Of a stretch of 47,730 nucleotides of DNA, positions 7,175-42,157 are shown piece by piece. Below the pieces are notes generated by a model. That model did not search any database. It saw only the letters and a program-made list of their open reading frames with translations, and was not told where the DNA came from. The stretch comes from an uncultured Gammaproteobacteria bacterium (GTDB lineage: Bacteria > Pseudomonadota > Gammaproteobacteria > Pseudomonadales > Pseudohongiellaceae): NCBI GenBank assembly GCA_913060695.1, contig CAJXUA010000024.1, forward strand, positions 1 through 47,730. Direction: 5' to 3'. Position 1 is the stretch's first letter. Every line of letters starts with the position of its first letter. The translations under genes were made by a program, and so were the position numbers.

Positions 7175-7949
7175 TTTTCCTCGAATCACTTCTATCCTTG
7201 AGTCAAACTCCCTTCAATAGAGGAGCTTTCGATGGCAAGGAAGCCCAGAATTTATCTAGACGGTTGCCCGCAACATATAATCCAACGCGGAAATAATCGA
7301 GCGGCCTGCTTTTATACGGACGCTGACTATGCTTTGTATCTAAACAAGCTTAGGAAGGCTGCCGCAGTAAATGATGTTAGCGTACATGCCTATGTCTTGA
7401 TGACCAATCACGTACACCTGCTAGCGTCGGGAGCGAATGAGTTCGCAATTCCCAATATGATGCAAAATCTGGGGCTCAATTTCGTACGTTATATAAACAT
7501 CACCTATAAGCGCACCGGCACGCTCTTTGAGGGGCGCTACAAATCGTCCCTATTATCGACCGATCGCTATTTTCTCACTCTAAGCCAATACATTGAGCTT
7601 AATCCTGTACGTGCAGGAATGGTCGCCGCACCAGGTCATTACCCTTGGTCTAGCTATCGTCATAATGCTATGGGGATCCCCATAGATTTAATCACTGAAC
7701 ATGATGAGTATAGAAATCTAGGCAGGACGAGAGCAAGTCGTGTAAAGGAGTACCGACGCCTTTTTCCAGACTTTCAAGCGCACGAAACTCTGGACGAAAT
7801 TCGTGCGTGCACCAACAAAGGATGGGCTATTGGTAACGACAAGTTCCGCGCCGAAATCGCGTCGATGCTAAAAAGAAAAGTGAATGACATTCCTCATGGT
7901 GGCGACCGAAAATCACACACATACAAGGAAAATCAAGGAACCTGACCCC
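7158..7949 (+). mobile_element. RAYT unit: REP-associated tyrosine transposase with 24-bp inverted ends
   Basis: A single transposase gene is framed by a perfect 24-bp inverted repeat, 7158-7181 and 7926-7949, beginning GGGGTCAGGTTCC. The outer GGGGTCAG is shared with the three non-autonomous palindromes at 23.4, 24.8 and 27.1 kb. The left end encodes the tail of the MATE gene and the right end lies against the stop codon of the radical SAM gene. No target-site duplication is obvious, as expected of HUH (IS200/IS605-like) single-strand transposition. Confidence 0.85.
7232..7945 (+). CDS. REP-associated tyrosine transposase (TnpA-REP, Y1 HUH family)
   Basis: This protein belongs to the single-tyrosine HUH transposases that cut single-stranded DNA and are thought to spread REP sequences. 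The 237 residues begin MARKPRIYLDG and carry the His-X-His metal motif in MTNHVHLL. The YIELNPVRAGMV block supplies the likely catalytic tyrosine, and YPWSSYRHNA follows, all hallmarks of the RAYT group. An AGAGGAG ribosome site lies seven to eight bases before ATG 7232. Its stop codon is inside the right inverted end of the unit. No frameshift or stop interrupts it, so it could be active. The related palindromes in this window are its probable substrates (inference from shared ends). Confidence 0.93.
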   Translation: MARKPRIYLDGCPQHIIQRGNNRAACFYTDADYALYLNKLRKAAAVNDVSVHAYVLMTNHVHLLASGANEFAIPNMMQNLGLNFVRYINITYKRTGTLFEGRYKSSLLSTDRYFLTLSQYIELNPVRAGMVAAPGHYPWSSYRHNAMGIPIDLITEHDEYRNLGRTRASRVKEYRRLFPDFQAHETLDEIRACTNKGWAIGNDKFRAEIASMLKRKVNDIPHGGDRKSHTYKENQGT

Positions 7950-15591: not shown

Positions 15592-15615
15592 CACTCCACT
15601 TGAGATGAATTGCCC

Positions 15616-18600
15616 ATGACCGTCCAGAAGACCAGCCCCGCCAGCTCTAAGAAAACCGCCGCTAAGAACAGTGTTAATAACGACAGCATCGTTATCACCG
15701 GCGCGCGGCAGAATAATCTGAAGAACCTCAGCCTTAGCCTGCCCACTGGCAAGCTCATCGTGGTGACTGGGGTGAGCGGTTCGGGAAAATCGACACTGGC
15801 ATTCGACACGATCTACGCCGAGGGGCAGCGTCGCTATGTCGAGACCTTCTCCGCTTATGCACGGCAGTTCCTCGACCGCATGGACAAGCCGGCGGTAGAC
15901 AATGTGCAGGGCATACCGCCCGCCATCGCCATCGACCAGAGCAACCCCGTGCGCACCTCGCGCTCTACCGTGGGCACGATGACCGAACTGAACGACTACT
16001 TGAAGCTAGCCTTCGCTCGTCTGGCCACCCTGCACTGCCCTCATTGCGCGCGGCCCGTGCACAAAGACACGCCTCAGAGCATCGTGGCGGATCTGCAGGC
16101 TAAGCTAAGTGAGGGGCAACGCATCCATGTTTGCCTGCCTATAAAGGTGCCCCATAACTTCAAGGAAGAGGAGATCGTGCAGCTCCTAGCGCAGCAGGGT
16201 TATACCCGCATTCAGTCGCGCAATGGCGACGTGGTCGAGGCCGTGCAAGACCGCCTGCGCTTTACGCCCGAACATCGCGAACGCCTGGGAGAGGCATTGG
16301 AGATGGCGCTACACCATGGCAATGGCCGCGTCTTGGTCTACCCGATGCGCGATGCCGAGGAGGCCGACGGCCCCGCCCTGCGCTACTCCACTCATCATCA
16401 TTGCCCCGATTGCGACGTGGAATTCTCGGAGCCCGTGCCCGCGCTGTTCTCGTTCAACTCCCCTATCGGTGCCTGCGCGAATTGCCGCGGCTTCGGCCGC
16501 ATCATTGGGGTGGATTTCGGGCTGGTGATTCCCGACGAGAACAAGACACTCGGGGAAGGCGCGGTGCGGCCATGGCAGACGCCGAGCTTCAAGGAGTGCC
16601 AGGTCGATCTCGTTAAGCATGCCAAGAAGAATAAGATTCCGATCGACGTGCCGTGGCACAAACTGAAAAAAACACAGAAGGAATGGGTGCTCGAGGGCGA
16701 AGGCTCCGCACAGGATGGTCACTGGTATGGCGTGCGCGGCTACTTCAATTGGCTAGAGACTAAGGCCTATAAGATGCACATCCGCGTCTTGCTCTCCAAG
16801 TACCGGGCCTATACGGAATGCCCGGAATGCAATGGCACGCGCCTGAAGGCGGAGAGCCAGTGGTGGCGACTGCACGCGGGCAGCGGCAAGAACGCGCAGG
16901 ATCTCAATCTTCACGAGGTGATGACACTATCGCTGGAACATTGCGCCGCCTTCTTCACGGCCTTGGCAGCGGAGAAACGCAAAGAGGGTTCGGCTTTAGA
17001 TGAAGCGACGATACTATTGCTTACCGAGATTCGTTCGCGGCTGACCTTCCTGCTCGACGTGGGCCTTGGCTACCTGACACTCGATCGTCAGTCGCGCACG
17101 CTCAGTGGCGGCGAGGTGCAGCGCATCAACCTGACCACCGCTCTGGGCACCTCCCTCGTCAATACCTTGTTCGTGTTGGACGAGCCGAGCATCGGCCTGC
17201 ACTCACGCGACATGAGGCGCATGATTCAGATACTGCACCGCCTGCGCGATGCGGGAAATACCCTACTAGTAGTAGAGCACGACCCCCAGGTGATGTTGGC
17301 GGCCGACCTAGTGATCGACATCGGCCCAGGGCCAGGCAAGGACGGCGGCGAGATTCGTTTCATGGGCACGCCGGCGCAGTTGCTGCGCAAGAAAGACAAT
17401 TTGACCGCTCAGTATCTTAATGGGCAGCGCAGCGTTCTCGATCTTCTGTTACCGGAACAACGCGGCATTGCCGATGCGGCCGCTAGCTATGCTGTGAGCA
17501 AGGCTAAGGCTGCAGTGCCCGAACGCAGCATCGACATCGAAGGCGCGGCGGAGAACAATCTGCGCGATCTTAGCGTTAGCGTGCCACTCGGTAAGCTAGT
17601 GTGCCTAACGGGTGTTAGCGGGTCTGGTAAGTCCACCCTGATGCACACCGTACTCTACCGCGCGGCATGTAAACAGCTTGGCCGCGCCACTGAGGCGCCG
17701 GGTCAGCATCGTGACATTCGCGGCCTCGACCAAGTGGACGATGTGATACTGGTGGACCAGAGCCCCATCGGCAAGACCACGCGTTCCATTCCCGCCACCT
17801 ATGTCGGCGCGTTCGACGTGATCCGCCAGCGTTTCATCGCCGAGCCTTTAGCGAAGGAGCGCAGCTATACCATCGGCAGCTTTAGTTTTAATGCCGGCAA
17901 TGGCCGCTGCCCGAGTTGCTCGGGTAATGGCTTCGAACATGTGGAGATGCAGTTCCTCAGCGACGTCTATCTGCGCTGCTCGGAGTGTAATGGCAAACGC
18001 TATCGTCGCGAGATCCTCGACGTGCGCGTCTCCGGTGCTACGCCGGGACGCAAGAACATCGCCGACATCCTCGCCATGACGGTCTCCGAGGCCTTGGCAT
18101 TCTATGCCGATGACGAAGCGGTACTCACTTGTTTGCAGCCCCTACTCGATGTTGGGCTGCAATATGTGCAACTCGGTCAGGCCGTGCCCACCCTAAGTGG
18201 TGGCGAGGCGCAGCGCCTGAAACTAGCCGGCCATCTCGCGTCCGTGGCGCAAGAGCAAGTAAGCGCGGCGAAGAAGAAGCGCAAGACTGGCGTTGTGGCC
18301 AAGGGCCTGTTGTTCCTATTCGACGAGCCCACCACCGGGCTGCACTTCCACGACATCAGCGTATTGATGAAGGCCTTCCGCAAGCTCTTGGATGCGGGGC
18401 ATTCGCTGCTGATCATCGAGCATAATCTGGACGTGATTCGCGCCGCCGACTGGCTGATCGATATCGGCCCCGAGGGCGGCGACAAGGGCGGCACGCTAGT
18501 GGCCGAGGGCAGCCCCGAAGACTTCCTGCGCGATGGCAAGGGGCTCACCGCTATCGCGCTGCAGGAATATGAGGCGGAACTGACCCGCGTGCGTTCGGGC

Positions 18601-21276
18601 GCGGCACTCCCCGTCATCGCCAACAGCAGCGCCGGTCCTATCAAGAAGATGAAGCAGGCGATTCAGATTCATCATGCCCGCGAACACAATCTCAAGAACA
18701 TCGACGTGGACATCCCCTGGAATAAATTCACGGTGATTACCGGCGTGAGCGGCAGCGGCAAGAGCACGCTGGCTTTTGACATCGTCTTCGGCGAGGGGCA
18801 GCGTCGCTATCTAGAATCCCTCAACGCCTATGCACGACAATTTGTGCAACCTGCCACCCGCCCGGATGTGGACGCGATCCATGGCATCCCGCCCACTGTG
18901 GCCATCGAGCAGCGCACTAGTCGGGGCGGCCGTAAGAGCACCGTCGCCACACTGACGGAAATCTATCACTTCCTGCGCCTTCTGTTCGTGAAACTGGGCA
19001 CGCAGTATTGCCCAAGCTGCGACGAGGCCATCGCGCCGCAGACTCGCGATCAGATACTGGCGCGTATTCTTAAGGCGGCACGCGGCAAGGAAGTCCATGT
19101 GCTCGCGCCTGTGGTTGTTGGCCGTAAGGGCATCTACAAGGAGCTGGCGGCATGGGCGGCTGCCCGTGGTTATGAACAAATACGCGTAGACGGTCAATTA
19201 GTGACGAGTGCCCCCTGGCCGGTGATCGACCGCTATAAGGAACACGACATCGAGATCTTGATCGGCACCGTAAAAGTCACACCACGCAACGAGGCGGCCT
19301 TGGCGAGCCTCATGGATCAGGCGCTGGAACTCGGCAACGGATTGCTCAGCATCATGCCCACCGCGGCAGCCTCGGGCGAGCGCAGTGGCGACACACTGTT
19401 CTCCACGCGCCGCGCCTGCCCCTCCTGTGGCGACAGCTTCGACGAGCTAGACCCACGGCTGTTTTCCTACAACTCTAAACACGGCTGGTGTGGCACCTGC
19501 TTCGGCACCGGTGAGGTCATCGAGAATTTCGAGGCCGAGCAGAGCGGCGAAGAAGCCCAATGGCTGGAGACTCCAGACGCGGACGCGCCTTCTATCCCTG
19601 TACGGGTCAACTGCCCCTCTTGTTCCGGCACGCGCCTGAACCCTATCGCCCTCGCGGTGCGCCTGAATGACCGCTCCATCGCCGAGTACACGGCACTTTC
19701 CGTGGACGACGCGGAGCGCGAGTTCGGCAAGCTGCGCTTCGACAAGAAGGAACAGGCTATAGCGCGGGACGTAGTGCCGGAATTGAATTCACGACTGCGC
19801 TTCCTGAATAAAGTGGGTTTGGGCTACCTTAGCCTCGACCGCGCGGCGCCCACCTTGAGTGGCGGCGAGGCGCAGCGCATTCGTCTCGCCTCCCAGTTAG
19901 GCTCTAATCTACAAGGGGTGTGCTACATCCTCGACGAGCCCACCATCGGCCTGCATGCGCGGGACAATGACCTACTGATTAGCACGCTGCGGGAATTACA
20001 GCGCCATGGCAATACCGTTATCGTGGTCGAGCACGACGACGCCACGATGGCCGAGGCAGACCATTTGATCGATGTGGGGCCGGGTGCAGGTAGCCGCGGC
20101 GGAGAGATCATCGCGCAAGGCACACTAGCGCAGCTGAAGAAGAACAAGGCCTCGCTCACCGGCCAGTTCCTCGCGAACCCACTGCGCCACCCCATCGCGG
20201 GCATTCGCGACGAGGAGGCGCGCGCTGGCTTCGAGAAGGAAGTACTGCGCATCGAGAACGCTAGCCTGCACAATCTGCGCGGCGTAACTGTGGACATCCC
20301 TCTGCGGCGTTTAGTGGCCGTGAGTGGCGTGAGTGGCAGCGGCAAGTCCAGCCTGATTCGCGGCGTCTTACACGACAACCTCAAGGCTCTACTGCGGGTC
20401 AAGGGCACGCGTAAGAAGCTGCCGGAGATCGTCAACTGCAAGGACATCGTCGGCTGGGAATCCATCGACCGCCTCTTACAGGTAGACCAGACCCCTATAG
20501 GCAAGACGCCACGCTCCTGCCCCGCTAGCTATATCGGCATCTGGGACACCATTCGCAAACTCTTCGCCGATACCGTGGACGCGCGCCTGCGCGGCTATGG
20601 CCCCGGGCGTTTCTCATTCAATGTCTCTGGCGGCCGCTGCGATACCTGTGCGGGCAATGGCATGCAGAAGATCGAGATGAACTTTCTGCCGGATGTGCGC
20701 GTGGACTGCGAAGAATGCCACGGCTGGCGCTTCAACGAGGACACCTTATCGGTGCGCTATAAGGACAAGCATATCGGCGAGGTATTGTTGATGAGTGTCG
20801 ACGAGGCGGTGGAGTTTTTCGCGCCCGTGCCACTCTTACATCACCCCTTGAGTCTCTTGCAGGATGTCGGCCTCGGCTATCTTACTCTCGGGCAGCAGAG
20901 CCCGACGCTCAGTGGTGGCGAGGCGCAGCGCATCAAGCTTGTTACGGAGTTAGCGAAGGCCAAACCCTCGGTACAGCTGCGGCGCAACACCAAGCAACAC
21001 ACGCTGTATATTCTCGACGAGCCGACCGTTGGTTTGCACATGGCGGACGTCGAGAAATTATTGCGGGTACTGCATCGCCTGGTCGACACTGGTAACAGCG
21101 TGATGGTGATCGAGCATAATCTCGACGTGATCGCAGAGGCTGACTGGGTGTTGGACATGGGTCCGGAGGGTGGCAAGGCTGGCGGAAAAATCGTGGCCAA
21201 GTGCGCCCCAGAGAAACTGTTAGGTAAGAAGCAATCTCATACCGCAGTTCATCTAGCGCGCCTGTTCGAGGGCTAG
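15616..21276 (+). CDS. uvrA: double-length UvrA (excinuclease ABC subunit A, two UvrA units fused in tandem)
   Basis: UvrA is the damage-sensing ATPase of nucleotide excision repair and normally works as a dimer of about 940 residues per chain. This chain has about 1886 residues and four ABC modules. Counted from TTG 15610, Walker A loops (GVSGSGKS) start near residues 54, 668, 1045 and 1573. Signature motifs (LSGGE) are at 498, 862, 1416 and 1767. Zinc-type CXXC pairs recur in each half, near 262-295, 406 and 770-800, and near 1271-1298, 1336 and 1677-1710. Both halves keep a segment where UvrA binds UvrB (clearest in LAPVVVGRKGIYKELAAW). It therefore looks like a covalent UvrA dimer with all ATP sites intact. 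ATG 15616 follows the LexA box, so SOS control is likely. A normal uvrA may exist elsewhere. Confidence 0.95.
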   Translation: MTVQKTSPASSKKTAAKNSVNNDSIVITGARQNNLKNLSLSLPTGKLIVVTGVSGSGKSTLAFDTIYAEGQRRYVETFSAYARQFLDRMDKPAVDNVQGIPPAIAIDQSNPVRTSRSTVGTMTELNDYLKLAFARLATLHCPHCARPVHKDTPQSIVADLQAKLSEGQRIHVCLPIKVPHNFKEEEIVQLLAQQGYTRIQSRNGDVVEAVQDRLRFTPEHRERLGEALEMALHHGNGRVLVYPMRDAEEADGPALRYSTHHHCPDCDVEFSEPVPALFSFNSPIGACANCRGFGRIIGVDFGLVIPDENKTLGEGAVRPWQTPSFKECQVDLVKHAKKNKIPIDVPWHKLKKTQKEWVLEGEGSAQDGHWYGVRGYFNWLETKAYKMHIRVLLSKYRAYTECPECNGTRLKAESQWWRLHAGSGKNAQDLNLHEVMTLSLEHCAAFFTALAAEKRKEGSALDEATILLLTEIRSRLTFLLDVGLGYLTLDRQSRTLSGGEVQRINLTTALGTSLVNTLFVLDEPSIGLHSRDMRRMIQILHRLRDAGNTLLVVEHDPQVMLAADLVIDIGPGPGKDGGEIRFMGTPAQLLRKKDNLTAQYLNGQRSVLDLLLPEQRGIADAAASYAVSKAKAAVPERSIDIEGAAENNLRDLSVSVPLGKLVCLTGVSGSGKSTLMHTVLYRAACKQLGRATEAPGQHRDIRGLDQVDDVILVDQSPIGKTTRSIPATYVGAFDVIRQRFIAEPLAKERSYTIGSFSFNAGNGRCPSCSGNGFEHVEMQFLSDVYLRCSECNGKRYRREILDVRVSGATPGRKNIADILAMTVSEALAFYADDEAVLTCLQPLLDVGLQYVQLGQAVPTLSGGEAQRLKLAGHLASVAQEQVSAAKKKRKTGVVAKGLLFLFDEPTTGLHFHDISVLMKAFRKLLDAGHSLLIIEHNLDVIRAADWLIDIGPEGGDKGGTLVAEGSPEDFLRDGKGLTAIALQEYEAELTRVRSGAALPVIANSSAGPIKKMKQAIQIHHAREHNLKNIDVDIPWNKFTVITGVSGSGKSTLAFDIVFGEGQRRYLESLNAYARQFVQPATRPDVDAIHGIPPTVAIEQRTSRGGRKSTVATLTEIYHFLRLLFVKLGTQYCPSCDEAIAPQTRDQILARILKAARGKEVHVLAPVVVGRKGIYKELAAWAAARGYEQIRVDGQLVTSAPWPVIDRYKEHDIEILIGTVKVTPRNEAALASLMDQALELGNGLLSIMPTAAASGERSGDTLFSTRRACPSCGDSFDELDPRLFSYNSKHGWCGTCFGTGEVIENFEAEQSGEEAQWLETPDADAPSIPVRVNCPSCSGTRLNPIALAVRLNDRSIAEYTALSVDDAEREFGKLRFDKKEQAIARDVVPELNSRLRFLNKVGLGYLSLDRAAPTLSGGEAQRIRLASQLGSNLQGVCYILDEPTIGLHARDNDLLISTLRELQRHGNTVIVVEHDDATMAEADHLIDVGPGAGSRGGEIIAQGTLAQLKKNKASLTGQFLANPLRHPIAGIRDEEARAGFEKEVLRIENASLHNLRGVTVDIPLRRLVAVSGVSGSGKSSLIRGVLHDNLKALLRVKGTRKKLPEIVNCKDIVGWESIDRLLQVDQTPIGKTPRSCPASYIGIWDTIRKLFADTVDARLRGYGPGRFSFNVSGGRCDTCAGNGMQKIEMNFLPDVRVDCEECHGWRFNEDTLSVRYKDKHIGEVLLMSVDEAVEFFAPVPLLHHPLSLLQDVGLGYLTLGQQSPTLSGGEAQRIKLVTELAKAKPSVQLRRNTKQHTLYILDEPTVGLHMADVEKLLRVLHRLVDTGNSVMVIEHNLDVIAEADWVLDMGPEGGKAGGKIVAKCAPEKLLGKKQSHTAVHLARLFEG

Positions 21277-22309: not shown

Positions 22310-23416
22310 ATGAAAACACGCGCCGCTGTTGCGTTTGCCGCTGGCAAGCCCTTGGAAATTGTTGAAGTCGACCTAGAGGGGCCACGTGCTGGCGAGGTAT
22401 TAATCGAGATCAAGGCCACTGGTGTGTGTCACACCGACGCATTCACGCTCTCCGGAGATGATCCCGAAGGCGCCTTCCCCGCCATCTTGGGCCATGAGGG
22501 CGCTGGCGTGGTGGTCGAGGTAGGCCCAGGCGTTAAGTCTTTGAAGGTTGGCGACACCGTAATTCCGCTGTACACCCCGGAGTGCCGCGAGTGCGAATAC
22601 TGCCTGAACCCTAAGACTAATCTCTGTCAGTCGATTCGCGCCACTCAGGGCAAGGGCGTTATGCCCGACGGCACGAGCCGCTTCTCCTTCGAGGGCAAGC
22701 CTATCCTGCACTATATGGGCTGCTCCACCTTTTCTAATTACACCGTGATGCCGGAGATCGCCGTTGCCAAGGTGCGCAGCGACGCGCCCTTCGACAAGAT
22801 CTGCTACATCGGCTGCGGGGTCACTACCGGAATCGGCGCCGTCGTATTCGACGCGAAGGTCGAGGTTGGCAGCACCGTGGCAGTATTCGGGCTAGGGGGC
22901 ATCGGCCTCAACGTCATTCAGGGTGCGCGCATGGCAGGTGCCAGTCGCATCATCGGCGTGGACCTGAACCCCGATAAGGTCGCCCTCGCCAAGCAGTTCG
23001 GCATGACCGACTTTGTGAACCCCAAGGACGTAAACGACGTGACCGGCCATATCATCGAGATGACCGGCGGTGGCGTGGATTACAGCTTCGAATGCATCGG
23101 CAATGTGAAGGTCATGCGCCAGGCCTTGGAGTGCACCCACAAGGGCTGGGGCGAATCCTTCATCATCGGCGTGGCCGGCGCGGGCCAAGAAATCTCCACA
23201 CGCCCCTTCCAACTAGTGACTGGCCGCTCCTGGCGCGGCAGCGCATTCGGCGGTGCACGAGGCCGCACTGATGTGCCCCGCATCGTAGACTGGTATATGG
23301 ACAAGAAGATCAGCATCGACCCCCTGATTACCCACACCATGCCGCTGGAAGACATCAACAAGGCCTTCGACCTGATGCACGCCGGCAAGAGCATCCGCTC
23401 CGTCATCCTTTTCTGA
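22310..23416 (+). CDS. frmA: S-(hydroxymethyl)glutathione dehydrogenase / class III alcohol dehydrogenase
   Basis: This zinc- and NAD-dependent enzyme oxidises the glutathione adduct of formaldehyde to S-formylglutathione. The 368 residues match class III alcohol dehydrogenases. The catalytic zinc ligands are Cys40 (GVCHTDAF), His62 (GHEGAG) and the Cys in [10 protein letters not shown]. The structural zinc lobe has Cys92, 95, 98 and 106. The NAD fold has [15 protein letters not shown] and a following Asp. AGGTTAGG precedes ATG 22310. The S-formylglutathione hydrolase gene that often follows frmA is not here; palindromic repeats start at its stop codon instead. An imperfect inverted repeat near 22219-22243 (CGCAAA...TTTGCG) could be an operator, which is weak evidence. 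Confidence 0.96.
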
Positions 23417-23535
23417 TCAAAGGGGTCAGAGTAATTTGATCCCAACAAAAGGCGTCGGGATCAAAGGGGTCAGAGTAACTTGATCAAAAAATGATCAAGT
23501 TACTCTGACCCCTTTGATCTCTGACCCCTTTGATC
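23417..23535. repeat. GGGGTCAG palindromic element M1 with nested half-copies
   Basis: A perfect 25-bp inverted repeat (23461-23485 and 23493-23517, seven-base A/T loop) has TCAAAGGGGTCAG at each outer end. It is preceded by another near-complete half (23417-23441) and followed by a short half (23519-23535). The first half starts immediately after the frmA TGA. The rest of the gap to 23726 holds a C/G-run hairpin (23604-23618) without a T-run and otherwise nothing I can interpret. Confidence 0.9.
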
Positions 23536-23726
23536 TCGGCCCCAATAATTCACCCTATTTTATTTCTTCTATCCCACTGAATTAACTCGCCTTTTAGCCG
23601 CAACCCCCCGAACAGGGGGTTTGCCCCCCCCGTGCCTCTTCGCTACTCTCCTGCCTACGGATCGCTCAGGCTTTTCGTGCCCTTCTTTTTCCTTATTCAG
23701 CAGTACTCGTCCGGAGAGAATATTCA

Positions 23727-24820: not shown

Positions 24821-24890
24821 TCAAAGGGGTGACCAAAGGGGTCAGAGTAACTTGATCGTTTTTTGATCAAGTTACTCTGACCCCTTTGGT
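24821..24890. repeat. GGGGTCAG palindromic element M2
   Basis: A perfect 26-bp inverted repeat (24832-24857 and 24865-24890) flanks a seven-base loop (GTTTTTT). An extra short half-copy (TCAAAGGGGT) precedes it at 24821. The inner 20 bases of each arm match element M1. Its right arm encodes the last residues and the stop of the cupin gene. Confidence 0.9.
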
Positions 24891-25219
24891 CCGTCGGTCG
24901 GGAAGTGGATGGCCAGCCAAACTGTGTCTTGGTTTGGGTCGGACCACTCTACTCTGTGTTTCTGCTGGGCTGGGATTGCCACGTAGTCGCCTTGGTTCAG
25001 TTCGGTTTCGCTGCCATCTTCCCAGCTTATTTTCGCCGCGCCCTTTAGGAGTAAGACCCACTCGTGACGGTCTTGCTTGTACCATGTGCCGGGGGCACTG
25101 CGTTGCCCGCGGGACACGATGCGCTCGATAAGGACGCCCGACTGCTCCCACAGTGGCTGAAACACCTCTTCTGCGCTCGCATTCGGTAGTTCGCTTAGAA
25201 TATTGCCGCTTGCCTTCAT
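24872..25219 (-). CDS. cupin-fold protein
   Basis: This is a 115-residue single-domain cupin. The two cupin motifs are visible as WYKQDRHEWVLLLKGAAKISWEDG (about 46-69) and LNQGDYVAIPAQQKHRVEW (about 74-92), with His and Glu positions suited to bind one metal. Similar small cupins are annotated as polyketide cyclases, sugar isomerases or metal-binding proteins without proof; its substrate is unknown. The last residues (PKGSE) and the TAA stop come from the arm of element M2, so the original C-terminus was altered by insertion. It diverges from an exported-protein gene across about 120 bp, where TATAAT (25267-25272) is a possible -10. Confidence 0.87.
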   Translation of the reverse strand: MKASGNILSELPNASAEEVFQPLWEQSGVLIERIVSRGQRSAPGTWYKQDRHEWVLLLKGAAKISWEDGSETELNQGDYVAIPAQQKHRVEWSDPNQDTVWLAIHFPTDGPKGSE

Positions 25220-27107: not shown

Positions 27108-27220
27108 ATGGGGTCAGGAATAAATGGGGTCAGTGTAATTTTATCGAGAATAAAAGCGCTGCCCCACTTATCGAAAAGATAAAGTTACACTGACCCCATT
27201 TATCCCTCTGACCCCACTTA
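27104..27220. repeat. GGGGTCAG palindromic element M3
   Basis: Outer half-copies (AAATGGGGTCAG on the left, CTGACCCCACTTA on the right) enclose an imperfect inverted repeat. Its left arm starts near 27125 and its right arm ends near 27200, around a 30-base centre. Outer termini match M1, M2 and the RAYT unit, while inner bases differ (GTGTAATTTTATC). It fills the folD-tyrB gap, and the tyrB ribosome site begins just beyond it. Confidence 0.82.
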
Positions 27221-29754: not shown

Positions 29755-29888
29755 TCAAGTTCAGTGTGGAGAGAGAAGCGAGGTATAAGGCGCCGAGACA
29801 CGCTACAAGCACATCCATGTGGGCTCTACGCCGGCCATCCTTGGCCGTCGAAGGTCTCATCGCCTTATACCCCACTCCTCTCTCTTGA
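29755..29888 (-). repeat. three-way-junction repeat element, copy A
   Basis: The outer stem 29769-29799 pairs with 29854-29884: 26 Watson-Crick pairs, four pairs that are G-U when read on the minus strand, and one mismatch. Inside lie two hairpins with conserved loops: CACA-TCCA-TGTG (29810-29821) and GGCCA-TCCT-TGGCC (29833-29846). I give the strand as minus because the G-U polarity and UGGA-type loops fall there. The 60-base core is nearly identical to copy B in opposite orientation. Confidence 0.85.
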
Positions 29889-29953
29889 TATTCTTGCCAG
29901 CGAATACACCAAGGACTTTTCACTGTCAGTGCTCACTGAGATCTGAACAACTC

Positions 29954-30195
29954 TCCCGAGCTTAGTGCCAAAGATATCCCAGTCGAATCTAAAGCAAGGA
30001 CTAAGGCGTGCTGTGTTGCCTAATATGACCTTCGTCGGCATGTAGGTAATTCGCCCCTGCATCCTCGGAACATCCATTAAACTTATCGGCGAATTATCTC
30101 AGTTGAGCAATATTCCCGAGCTTAGTGCCAAGAGTATCCCAGCCGATTCTAAAGTAAGGCCTAAGGCGTGCGGTGATGCCTGACAGGACCTTCGA
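29954..30195. repeat. diverged direct repeat of about 82 bp, 160 bp apart
   Basis: The segment 29954-30035 (from CCCGAGCTTAGTGCCA to GACCTTCG) recurs at 30114-30195 with scattered differences. The second copy runs into element copy B, and the first stops after the same arm and the first bases of a core, so it looks like the remnant of a decayed element. Confidence 0.75.
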
Positions 30196-30275
30196 CGGCC
30201 ATGGATGGCCGGCGTAGAGCCCACATGGATGTGCTTGTAGCGTGTCCTGACAGGCATTACCGTGCGGCTTAGGCC
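30158..30275 (+). repeat. three-way-junction repeat element, copy B
   Basis: The arms 30158-30186 and 30247-30275 pair over 29 positions: 24 Watson-Crick, three G-U on the plus strand, two mismatches. The core 30187-30246 is the reverse complement of the copy A core with about one difference and contains both hairpins with TGGA loops. The arms are unrelated in sequence to those of copy A. Confidence 0.87.
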
Positions 30276-30425
30276 GATGCAAGAACACTAAATCCCTAAG
30301 TCCAAACTCAAACTAATGCCAAAATAGATATCTCAATGGCACGCCTAACGAGAATTACAACGCGGCTTAGGCCGATGCAAGAACACTAAATCCCTAAGCC
30401 CAAACTCAAACCAATGCCAAAATAG
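30264..30425. repeat. 64-bp direct repeat in the aroG-murJ gap
   Basis: The segment 30264-30327 (starting GCGGCTTAGGCCGATGC) recurs at 30362-30425 with two differences. The first copy contains the right arm of element copy B, so element arm plus flank was duplicated. The remainder of the gap up to 30491 shows nothing else recognisable. Confidence 0.85.
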
Positions 30426-41805: not shown

Positions 41806-41907
41806 GCCGGGTAAAGATTTTCTGGAAACGCCAAAAAGCGCACATCCATGTGCAGGCTCCACGTGCGCCGTCCAGGCGCCCGAGGTTCCTGAAACTCTTC
41901 ACCCGAC
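41806..41907 (-). repeat. three-way-junction repeat element, copy C
   Basis: The arms 41806-41827 and 41886-41907 pair with 18 Watson-Crick pairs, two pairs that are G-U on the minus strand, and two mismatches. The inner hairpins are GCACA-TCCA-TGTGC (41840-41853) and GCGCC-GTCCA-GGCGC (41865-41879). On the minus strand the first hairpin is followed by GC and T5. The flanking part of the 495-bp Nramp-ndvB gap holds only copy D and a terminator. Confidence 0.85.
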
Positions 41908-42037: not shown

Positions 42038-42157
42038 GAGCCGCGTAGCGGGAGGGGGAGTACAGGAGCCTCGGGCGCCAGGACGGCGCACGTGGAGCTT
42101 GCACATGGATGTGCGTTTTTTGGCGTCTCCAGTAATTCCCCTCCCGCTGCGTGGCTC
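42038..42157 (+). repeat. three-way-junction repeat element, copy D
   Basis: The arms 42038-42064 and 42131-42157 pair over 27 positions: 22 Watson-Crick, three G-U on the plus strand, two mismatches; four more pairs follow inward. The core 42065-42130 is the reverse complement of the copy C core with few differences. The GCACA-TGGA-TGTGC hairpin is followed by G and T6 on the plus strand, which resembles a terminator for the Nramp-like gene. Confidence 0.87.

Follow-up and report, generated by a model that had tools for sequence, protein, structure and literature searches.

A YPAL-type palindromic repeat with a double GGA-loop hairpin, dispersed in Gammaproteobacteria

What are the paired, strongly folding repeats that lie between genes in an uncultured member of the Pseudohongiellaceae, and do they act as RNA, as DNA or as mobile elements? 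The window, by which we mean the whole stretch of 47,730 nucleotides that was analysed (contig CAJXUA010000024.1 of assembly GCA_913060695.1), contains a structured repeat in five copies, A, B, C, D and E (Table 1), of which A and B are flanked by a gene for DAHP synthase and by murJ, each directed leftward. A preliminary description had located A and B and assigned C, D and E to the same plan, all of which we recovered. Read 5' to 3' on the strand with GGA in its loops (the GGA strand, opposite to the TCC strand), the order is left arm, hairpin 2, a joint with GAGCC, hairpin 1, a five-base bulge, GGC and right arm. The cores of A and B are 98% identical over 60 bases, while their outer arms are unrelated in sequence yet complementary, as had been claimed for A to D. 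Across the copies analysed, one conserved core (hairpin 1 with the five-base bulge, and hairpin 2) tips long complementary arms that differ between lineages and even between neighbours, and on the GGA strand this core is a double hairpin resembling the RNA motif TwoAYGGAY, with loops of CsrA/RsmA type. The repeat is very probably an element of the type of YPAL, a miniature inverted-repeat transposable element (MITE) of Yersinia, with a fold on the GGA strand.

Table 1 Repeat copies in the window, their hairpins and the duplicated pieces beside copy B.
Feature	Position	Strand	Sequence or remark
Copy A	29755..29888	GGA strand minus	
Copy A hairpin 1, CsrA-type loop	29810..29821	minus	CACATGGATGTG
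Copy A hairpin 2	29833..29846	minus	GGCCAAGGATGGCC
Copy B, convergent partner of A	30158..30275	GGA strand plus	
Copy B hairpin 2	30197..30210	plus	GGCCATGGATGGCC
Copy B hairpin 1	30222..30233	plus	CACATGGATGTG
Copy C (model coordinates)	41809..41906	GGA strand minus	
Copy D (model coordinates), convergent partner of C	42048..42145	GGA strand plus	
Copy E, truncated at window/contig end	47661..47730	minus	
Duplicated pieces of the flanks and arms of B, beside B	29944..30425		29944-30039 resembles 30104-30199; 30246-30327 resembles 30344-30425

Three other features of the window were recorded. Inverted pairs of a second repeat family, GGGGTCAGAGTAACTTGATC, occur at 23415-23543, 24831-24891 and 27116-27207 and fit the GGGGWSAS motif reported at some tyrosine transposase genes (PMC3733652). 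A Y1 transposase match lies at 7265-7597, and a single 1888-aa ORF at 15610-21276 has doubled UvrA domains, as in a fused tandem UvrA-like protein.

On the GGA strand, copies A and B have folding energies of -69.6 and -73.6 kcal/mol (z = -6.8 and -8.1), with 0 of 200 shuffles as good, and their opposite strands fold more weakly (-58.0 and -61.5 kcal/mol; z = -5.0 and -6.2). Covariation was assessed in a seed alignment of 28 sequences, 23 from relatives and 5 from the genome that holds the window (the home genome); a strict hairpin-2 filter had dropped 74 of 123 pattern matches from this seed, near-duplicates above 92% were also dropped, and three pattern matches in Mesorhizobium, Agrobacterium and Luteimonas records (L071, L078, L117) were left out as chance. 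The stems of the repeat family covary strongly. Paired cells amounted to 89.6%, compared to 67.0% in shuffles and 33-39% when the alignment was slid, and 26 of the 37 pairs had changed on both sides, including all 19 outer pairs, so that the proposed family with an outer stem, two hairpins and compensatory changes stands. One of five covariation measures, the number of further pair types, did not go beyond shuffles (79 of 500 reached the observed value). In six elements for which the home genome could be compared with an orthologous copy in UBA5078, there were 246 unchanged pairs, one pair that was not aligned, and 49 changed pairs, of which 33 still pair (26 with one change, 7 with two) and 16 break. 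Unpaired core bases are conserved across the class, as is the bulge. Because single-stranded DNA would give the same signal, we gave up covariation as proof of RNA; the fold by itself cannot tell the two apart.

Mismatches within the outer stem showed on which strand the fold is kept. The model search, which took in 97 of 225 loci and the window, yielded 143 copies, whose outer stems read on the TCC strand contain 166 A.C mismatches versus 23 G.U. Among 81 representatives clustered at 75% identity the counts were 62 A.C versus 14 G.U (p = 2e-8; 37 versus 8 clusters). Since an A.C mismatch corresponds to G.U on the complementary strand, it is the GGA strand that keeps the fold, and since the covariance model was built on the TCC strand, search bias runs against this result. 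Counted by clusters, hairpin 1 alone (3 A.C, 7 G.U) and hairpin 2 (16, 11) had no clear strand bias, and at the two loop-closing positions the asymmetry was reversed (0 A.C versus 39 G.U on the TCC strand), which we read as a sign that the six-base loop is open on the GGA strand. Near-identical cores with unrelated, nearly perfect arms would also be expected if template-switch correction of palindromes during replication kept the stems complementary in the absence of selection; this explanation predicts neither the strand asymmetry nor the class-wide conservation of unpaired core bases, and we regard it as highly improbable.

The same asymmetry bears on the four natures initially suggested for the repeat, of which a structured RNA and a non-autonomous mobile element fit our results. 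A DNA cruciform alone does not, as it would not yield strand asymmetry, whereas a single-stranded DNA hairpin would. A transcription end signal is likewise not supported: of 78 representatives, 11 have a T-run of at least four within 40 nt after the GGA strand, compared to 19 for the TCC strand. The promoter signal upstream of the GGA strand was not enriched either (7.8 matches versus 7.5-7.7 in controls), and with neither T-runs nor promoters enriched on that strand, an intrinsic terminator or an own promoter was rejected.

The main rival explanation holds that the GGA strand folds as single-stranded DNA and in this form is the hairpin on which a strand-specific transposase or recombinase acts, in the way that RAYTs use REP hairpins, with no RNA function needed. 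It gives the same asymmetry in the outer stem, but gives no reason for CsrA-type loops, and replication-strand bias was not significant among the matches listed (60:41, p = 0.07, from 101 of at least 150 positions in Methylotuvimicrobium buryatense 5G, and 21:17 from 38 of 132 in Methylomicrobium sp. wino1). Its best candidate enzyme, Y1/RAYT, was lacking in 4 of the 30 carriers searched (29 different genomes, as one was included twice); one of these four is 99% complete and has at least 15 copies of the repeat. Only 1 of 34 Y1 loci examined (30 of the 115 found, plus four in the home genome) had a weak copy nearby (E = 0.0037). A RAYT/Y1 partner is therefore not supported, and the single-stranded DNA explanation as a whole seems to us rather unlikely, although the gene orientation, inserted modules and reported YPAL target sites described below agree with it.

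The repeat extends well beyond the window. The 60-base core found further copies in the home genome, and a degenerate pattern found at least 116 stretches, including many in unnamed Gammaproteobacteria and others in Methylotuvimicrobium, Methylomicrobium, Methylomonas, Shewanella, Marinobacter, Idiomarina, Alcanivorax, Haliea, Parahaliea and Agaribacterium. A covariance model built from 28 copies, R1, gave 41 matches in the home genome at E ≤ 1e-3 and 49 at E ≤ 1 (150 of 1300 candidates scored). Gammaproteobacterial genomes were searched with this model, as the preliminary description had envisaged, and 54 of 274 had matches at E ≤ 1e-3 (43 of 236 good genomes). In a phylum-wide draw, 17 of 299 genomes had matches at E ≤ 1e-4, every one in Gammaproteobacteria. 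Searches over more than 40 genomes used stricter filters and scored few candidates per genome, such that these counts are lower bounds. Copy numbers were high in methanotrophs; at E ≤ 1e-5 there were at least 150 copies in M. buryatense 5G, where 150 were scored, and 132 in Methylomicrobium sp. wino1. A single 92-nt copy had no blastn match at E ≤ 1e-3 in plasmids and phages.

Neighbouring copies are often arranged in pairs. Among 13 neighbour pairs starting less than 500 bp apart in the home genome (E ≤ 1e-3), 12 were convergent, with TCC strands inward, and one was tandem, while 19 such neighbours in the other genomes examined comprised 8 convergent, 8 tandem and 3 divergent cases. The convergent pair is thus the rule at home, but not everywhere. 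Convergent pairs elsewhere include those in Marinobacter (L038), Haliea (L076) and Parahaliea (L136), and near neighbours among the methanotroph matches listed were tandem. Partner copies often had unrelated arms although their cores were nearly alike. One locus (L290, genome G468) consists of six tandem copies with a period of about 227 bp, each joined to a REP-like palindrome, GTAGGAGCGGCTTCAGCCGCG.

Copies were enriched between convergent genes (44, versus 13 between divergent genes) among the 117 copies that remained after leaving out 26 of 143 without a usable gene on both sides. This enrichment is what an ordinary MITE would show if its transcribed hairpin merely shielded or destabilised the 3' ends of neighbouring mRNAs without a CsrA partner, and YPAL is reported to be co-produced with upstream genes, perhaps affecting their RNA stability (PMC2229807). 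Such a MITE fails to explain the near-invariant GGA loops, the conserved bulge and the one-strand fold, and we consider it improbable. Among single copies between co-directional genes, the GGA strand was antisense in 20 and sense in 9, based on crude long-ORF gene calls and leaving out 13 copies inside ORFs and others without near genes. We rejected a preference for the sense orientation in mRNA, as the tendency is if anything the reverse; a single-stranded DNA substrate agrees with the lack of a sense-strand bias near genes.

Evidence for mobility came from the ends of the copies. In a Chromatiales metagenome-assembled genome (MAG), copies end in inverted repeats of CAGGG type, with both ends found by rule in 7 of 11, and 10-bp target duplications (at least 8 of 10 positions matching) were present in 6 of the 7 testable copies versus 0 of 42 cross pairs, indicating that the repeat is a mobile element in that lineage. 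Copies in another MAG have the ends AATGGCACTTACTTAA, with duplications of 11-12 bp seen by eye in two copies, and the 19 copies analysed from M. buryatense have sharp ends, TAACGTTCATG and CACAGTAA, and lack terminal inverted repeats. As the ends differ among these three, the same core travels with different ends. UBA5078 was checked for an empty site at one locus, which was filled in both genomes. We rejected an autonomous element whose paired copies enclose a transposase gene, since seven ORFs from five wider pairs included no transposase; they comprised a rhomboid, a TPP enzyme, a poly(A) polymerase-like protein, an oxidoreductase, a HEPN match below cut-off and two without family. In the home genome (C5; L216, 2037-4066), two near-identical inverted copies about 1.9 kb apart flank a rhomboid-family gene, as if captured.

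Hairpin tips also receive other sequences. A 51-nt hairpin module interrupts hairpin 2 at its tip, immediately before GGA, in the four single home-genome insertions with both flanks read (L009, L010, L014, L016); seven copies of this module were found in all. UBA5078 carries it in the hairpin-2 tip at the locus where window copy B has none. The elements may grow by insertion into hairpin tips. Modules at these positions would also suit a single-stranded DNA substrate, as would the reported YPAL targets in or beside dyad symmetry (PMC2229807), a preference with which the tip insertions of the module agree. Two further kinds of rearrangement were observed: in L009 and L006 of the home genome, another hairpin (CCCTTTACCCTCG.AAGGGG) is inserted in the hairpin-1 loop, adjoining GGA, and in methanotroph chimeras (L037, L042, L069, L097 and others) the left arm is swapped for a palindrome, CCAGCACCTAAATT...AATTTAGGTGCTGG, after which the core continues.

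Among 119 copies outside the model, which include close kin of model members, the GGA-strand loop C-ANGGAN-G was present in hairpin 1 of 117, whereas hairpin 2 had it in exact form in 69 and both hairpins in 68. The initial claim that the loop stays constant while the stem changes therefore applies to hairpin 1, with hairpin 2 being less constant. The SELEX consensus reported for CsrA is RUACARGGAUGU, mostly in six-base loops, and one CsrA dimer is reported to bridge sites 10-63 nt apart (PMC7652899). In the 88 of 143 copies with both loops exact, the distance from GGA to GGA was 20-21 nt, in agreement with the rule of GGA in six-base hairpin loops paired 10-63 nt apart. Based on this match, the GGA-strand RNA is a predicted CsrA site, and we propose binding tentatively, with somewhat less than even confidence. 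Several observations count against it. The exact loop of hairpin 2 is confined to the 69 copies given above, and module insertions in that hairpin disrupt its loop and introduce GGA loops of their own on the opposite strand. The antisense tendency of single copies, the lack of promoter enrichment, the absence of a clear strand bias in hairpins 1 and 2, the reversed asymmetry at the loop-closing positions and the lack of TwoAYGGAY matches at E ≤ 0.01 in the home genome and the two richest carriers also weigh against the explanation. Further, csrA was found in 50 of 54 element-bearing genomes versus 235 of 274 overall, and one carrier that is 98% complete (G196) had no csrA match.

Taken as a whole, the explanation we favour, a non-autonomous palindromic mobile element of YPAL type whose GGA strand would dock CsrA/RsmA, has in our judgement an even chance of being correct. 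According to this explanation, transposases would disperse the element by acting on its ends, which vary from lineage to lineage, and the core would be carried along as structured cargo. The GGA strand would be transcribed, by read-through or otherwise, and its RNA could dock a CsrA/RsmA dimer across both loops, which may protect the transcript or titrate CsrA/RsmA. The double CsrA/RsmA-type site would be useful only when the GGA strand is transcribed. A broader and more speculative proposal, which we think has a low probability, unites YPAL, Ysr224 and TwoAYGGAY in a single mobile family that spans the class. This family would distribute preformed sites for CsrA/RsmA dimers, up to 150 or more in a genome, and would grow as further GGA-loop hairpin modules insert into its own hairpin tips, such that a transposon-like element would tune a global regulator.

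What is added here is the joining of the three names, the class-wide spread, the convergent pairs and the strand evidence, with the role of CsrA as a testable proposal. One family, carried by about one fifth of the genomes sampled in the class, takes in a MITE and an sRNA family of Yersinia together with an orphan RNA motif, and matches annotated as Ysr224 or TwoAYGGAY may be copies of a mobile element rather than separate genes. If the CsrA step is true, mobile elements would supply regulator sponges. In the literature searched (main texts, using queries that did not combine all three names), we found no paper linking YPAL, Ysr224 and TwoAYGGAY.

The preliminary description had recognised no named family, which our comparisons revise: the core is that of YPAL/RU-2, and there are matches to Ysr224 and TwoAYGGAY, mostly below gathering scores, so that the family had in part been described already. 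Comparison with Rfam, which had also been suggested, found nothing that reached a gathering score, either in the window or in the 11 related loci compared, but with looser settings copy B matched TwoAYGGAY (RF01731) at 30.8 bits over 30150-30283, below the gathering score of 43 bits. Locus L072 matched TwoAYGGAY at 38.2 bits on the GGA strand and Ysr224 at 37.2 bits on the TCC strand. In 38 chosen genomes, TwoAYGGAY matches at E ≤ 0.01 occurred in 8 of the 23 that have R1 copies and in 2 of the 15 that lack them (5 of 38 above cut-off), and at this threshold there was no match in the whole home genome or in the two richest carriers, both methanotrophs. Among the matches listed, five TwoAYGGAY matches (four in G370, one in G205) overlap R1 copies on the opposite strand. 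Genome G009 has 26 TwoAYGGAY matches and no R1 match at E ≤ 1e-3, pointing to a sister family of the same plan. TwoAYGGAY and the R1 family share the GGA strand, two hairpins with AYGGAY-like loops and a weakly conserved outer stem, and differ in hairpin 1, which in R1 is short and has a bulge. TwoAYGGAY has been listed from human gut, gamma-Proteobacteria and Clostridiales (PMC2864571), and CsrA binding was earlier proposed for it (PMC4333381).

Ysr224 (RF02770) was detected at E ≤ 1e-3 in 27 of 274 genomes of the class, 26 of which also had R1 copies; its gathering score of 70 bits was reached in 0 of 274. Its consensus contains the R1 core on the TCC strand, and in Rfam it is an sRNA with a different structure on the strand opposite to GGA, which we counted against a GGA-strand RNA. 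Several copies of Ysr224 are reported to be transcribed in Y. ruckeri (PMC12112432). REP/REPIN sequences with RAYTs are, like the R1 family, dispersed strand-specific hairpins, often in inverted pairs (PMC3733652), but R1 elements are much longer and were not found beside Y1 genes. Integron attC sites were weighed on anatomy alone and set aside. The resemblance to sponge RNAs of CsrB/RsmZ type is one of possible working, in that both have paired GGA hairpin loops at bridging distance, whereas R1 is mobile, occurs in many copies, has two sites and lacks a promoter signal, and its binding is predicted.

A close counterpart is YPAL/RU-2 of Yersinia (about 168 bp). Alignment scores to RU-2 were 25 for A, 23 for B, 17 for C, 33 for L136 and 37 for L072, compared to shuffle maxima of 12-17, and the score of L136 compares with at most 13 in 300 shuffles. 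YPAL is reported to have been recently mobile, with target duplications of 3-26 bp (PMC2229807), compared to 10 bp in one R1 lineage. The R1 family differs in its arms and ends, in the convergent pairs observed here and in its distribution far outside Yersinia and Erwinia. Common to both are a core consisting of a GGA-loop hairpin, GAGCC, TACATGGATGTA, the bulge and GGCGT, long palindromic complementary arms, mobility and an intergenic location.
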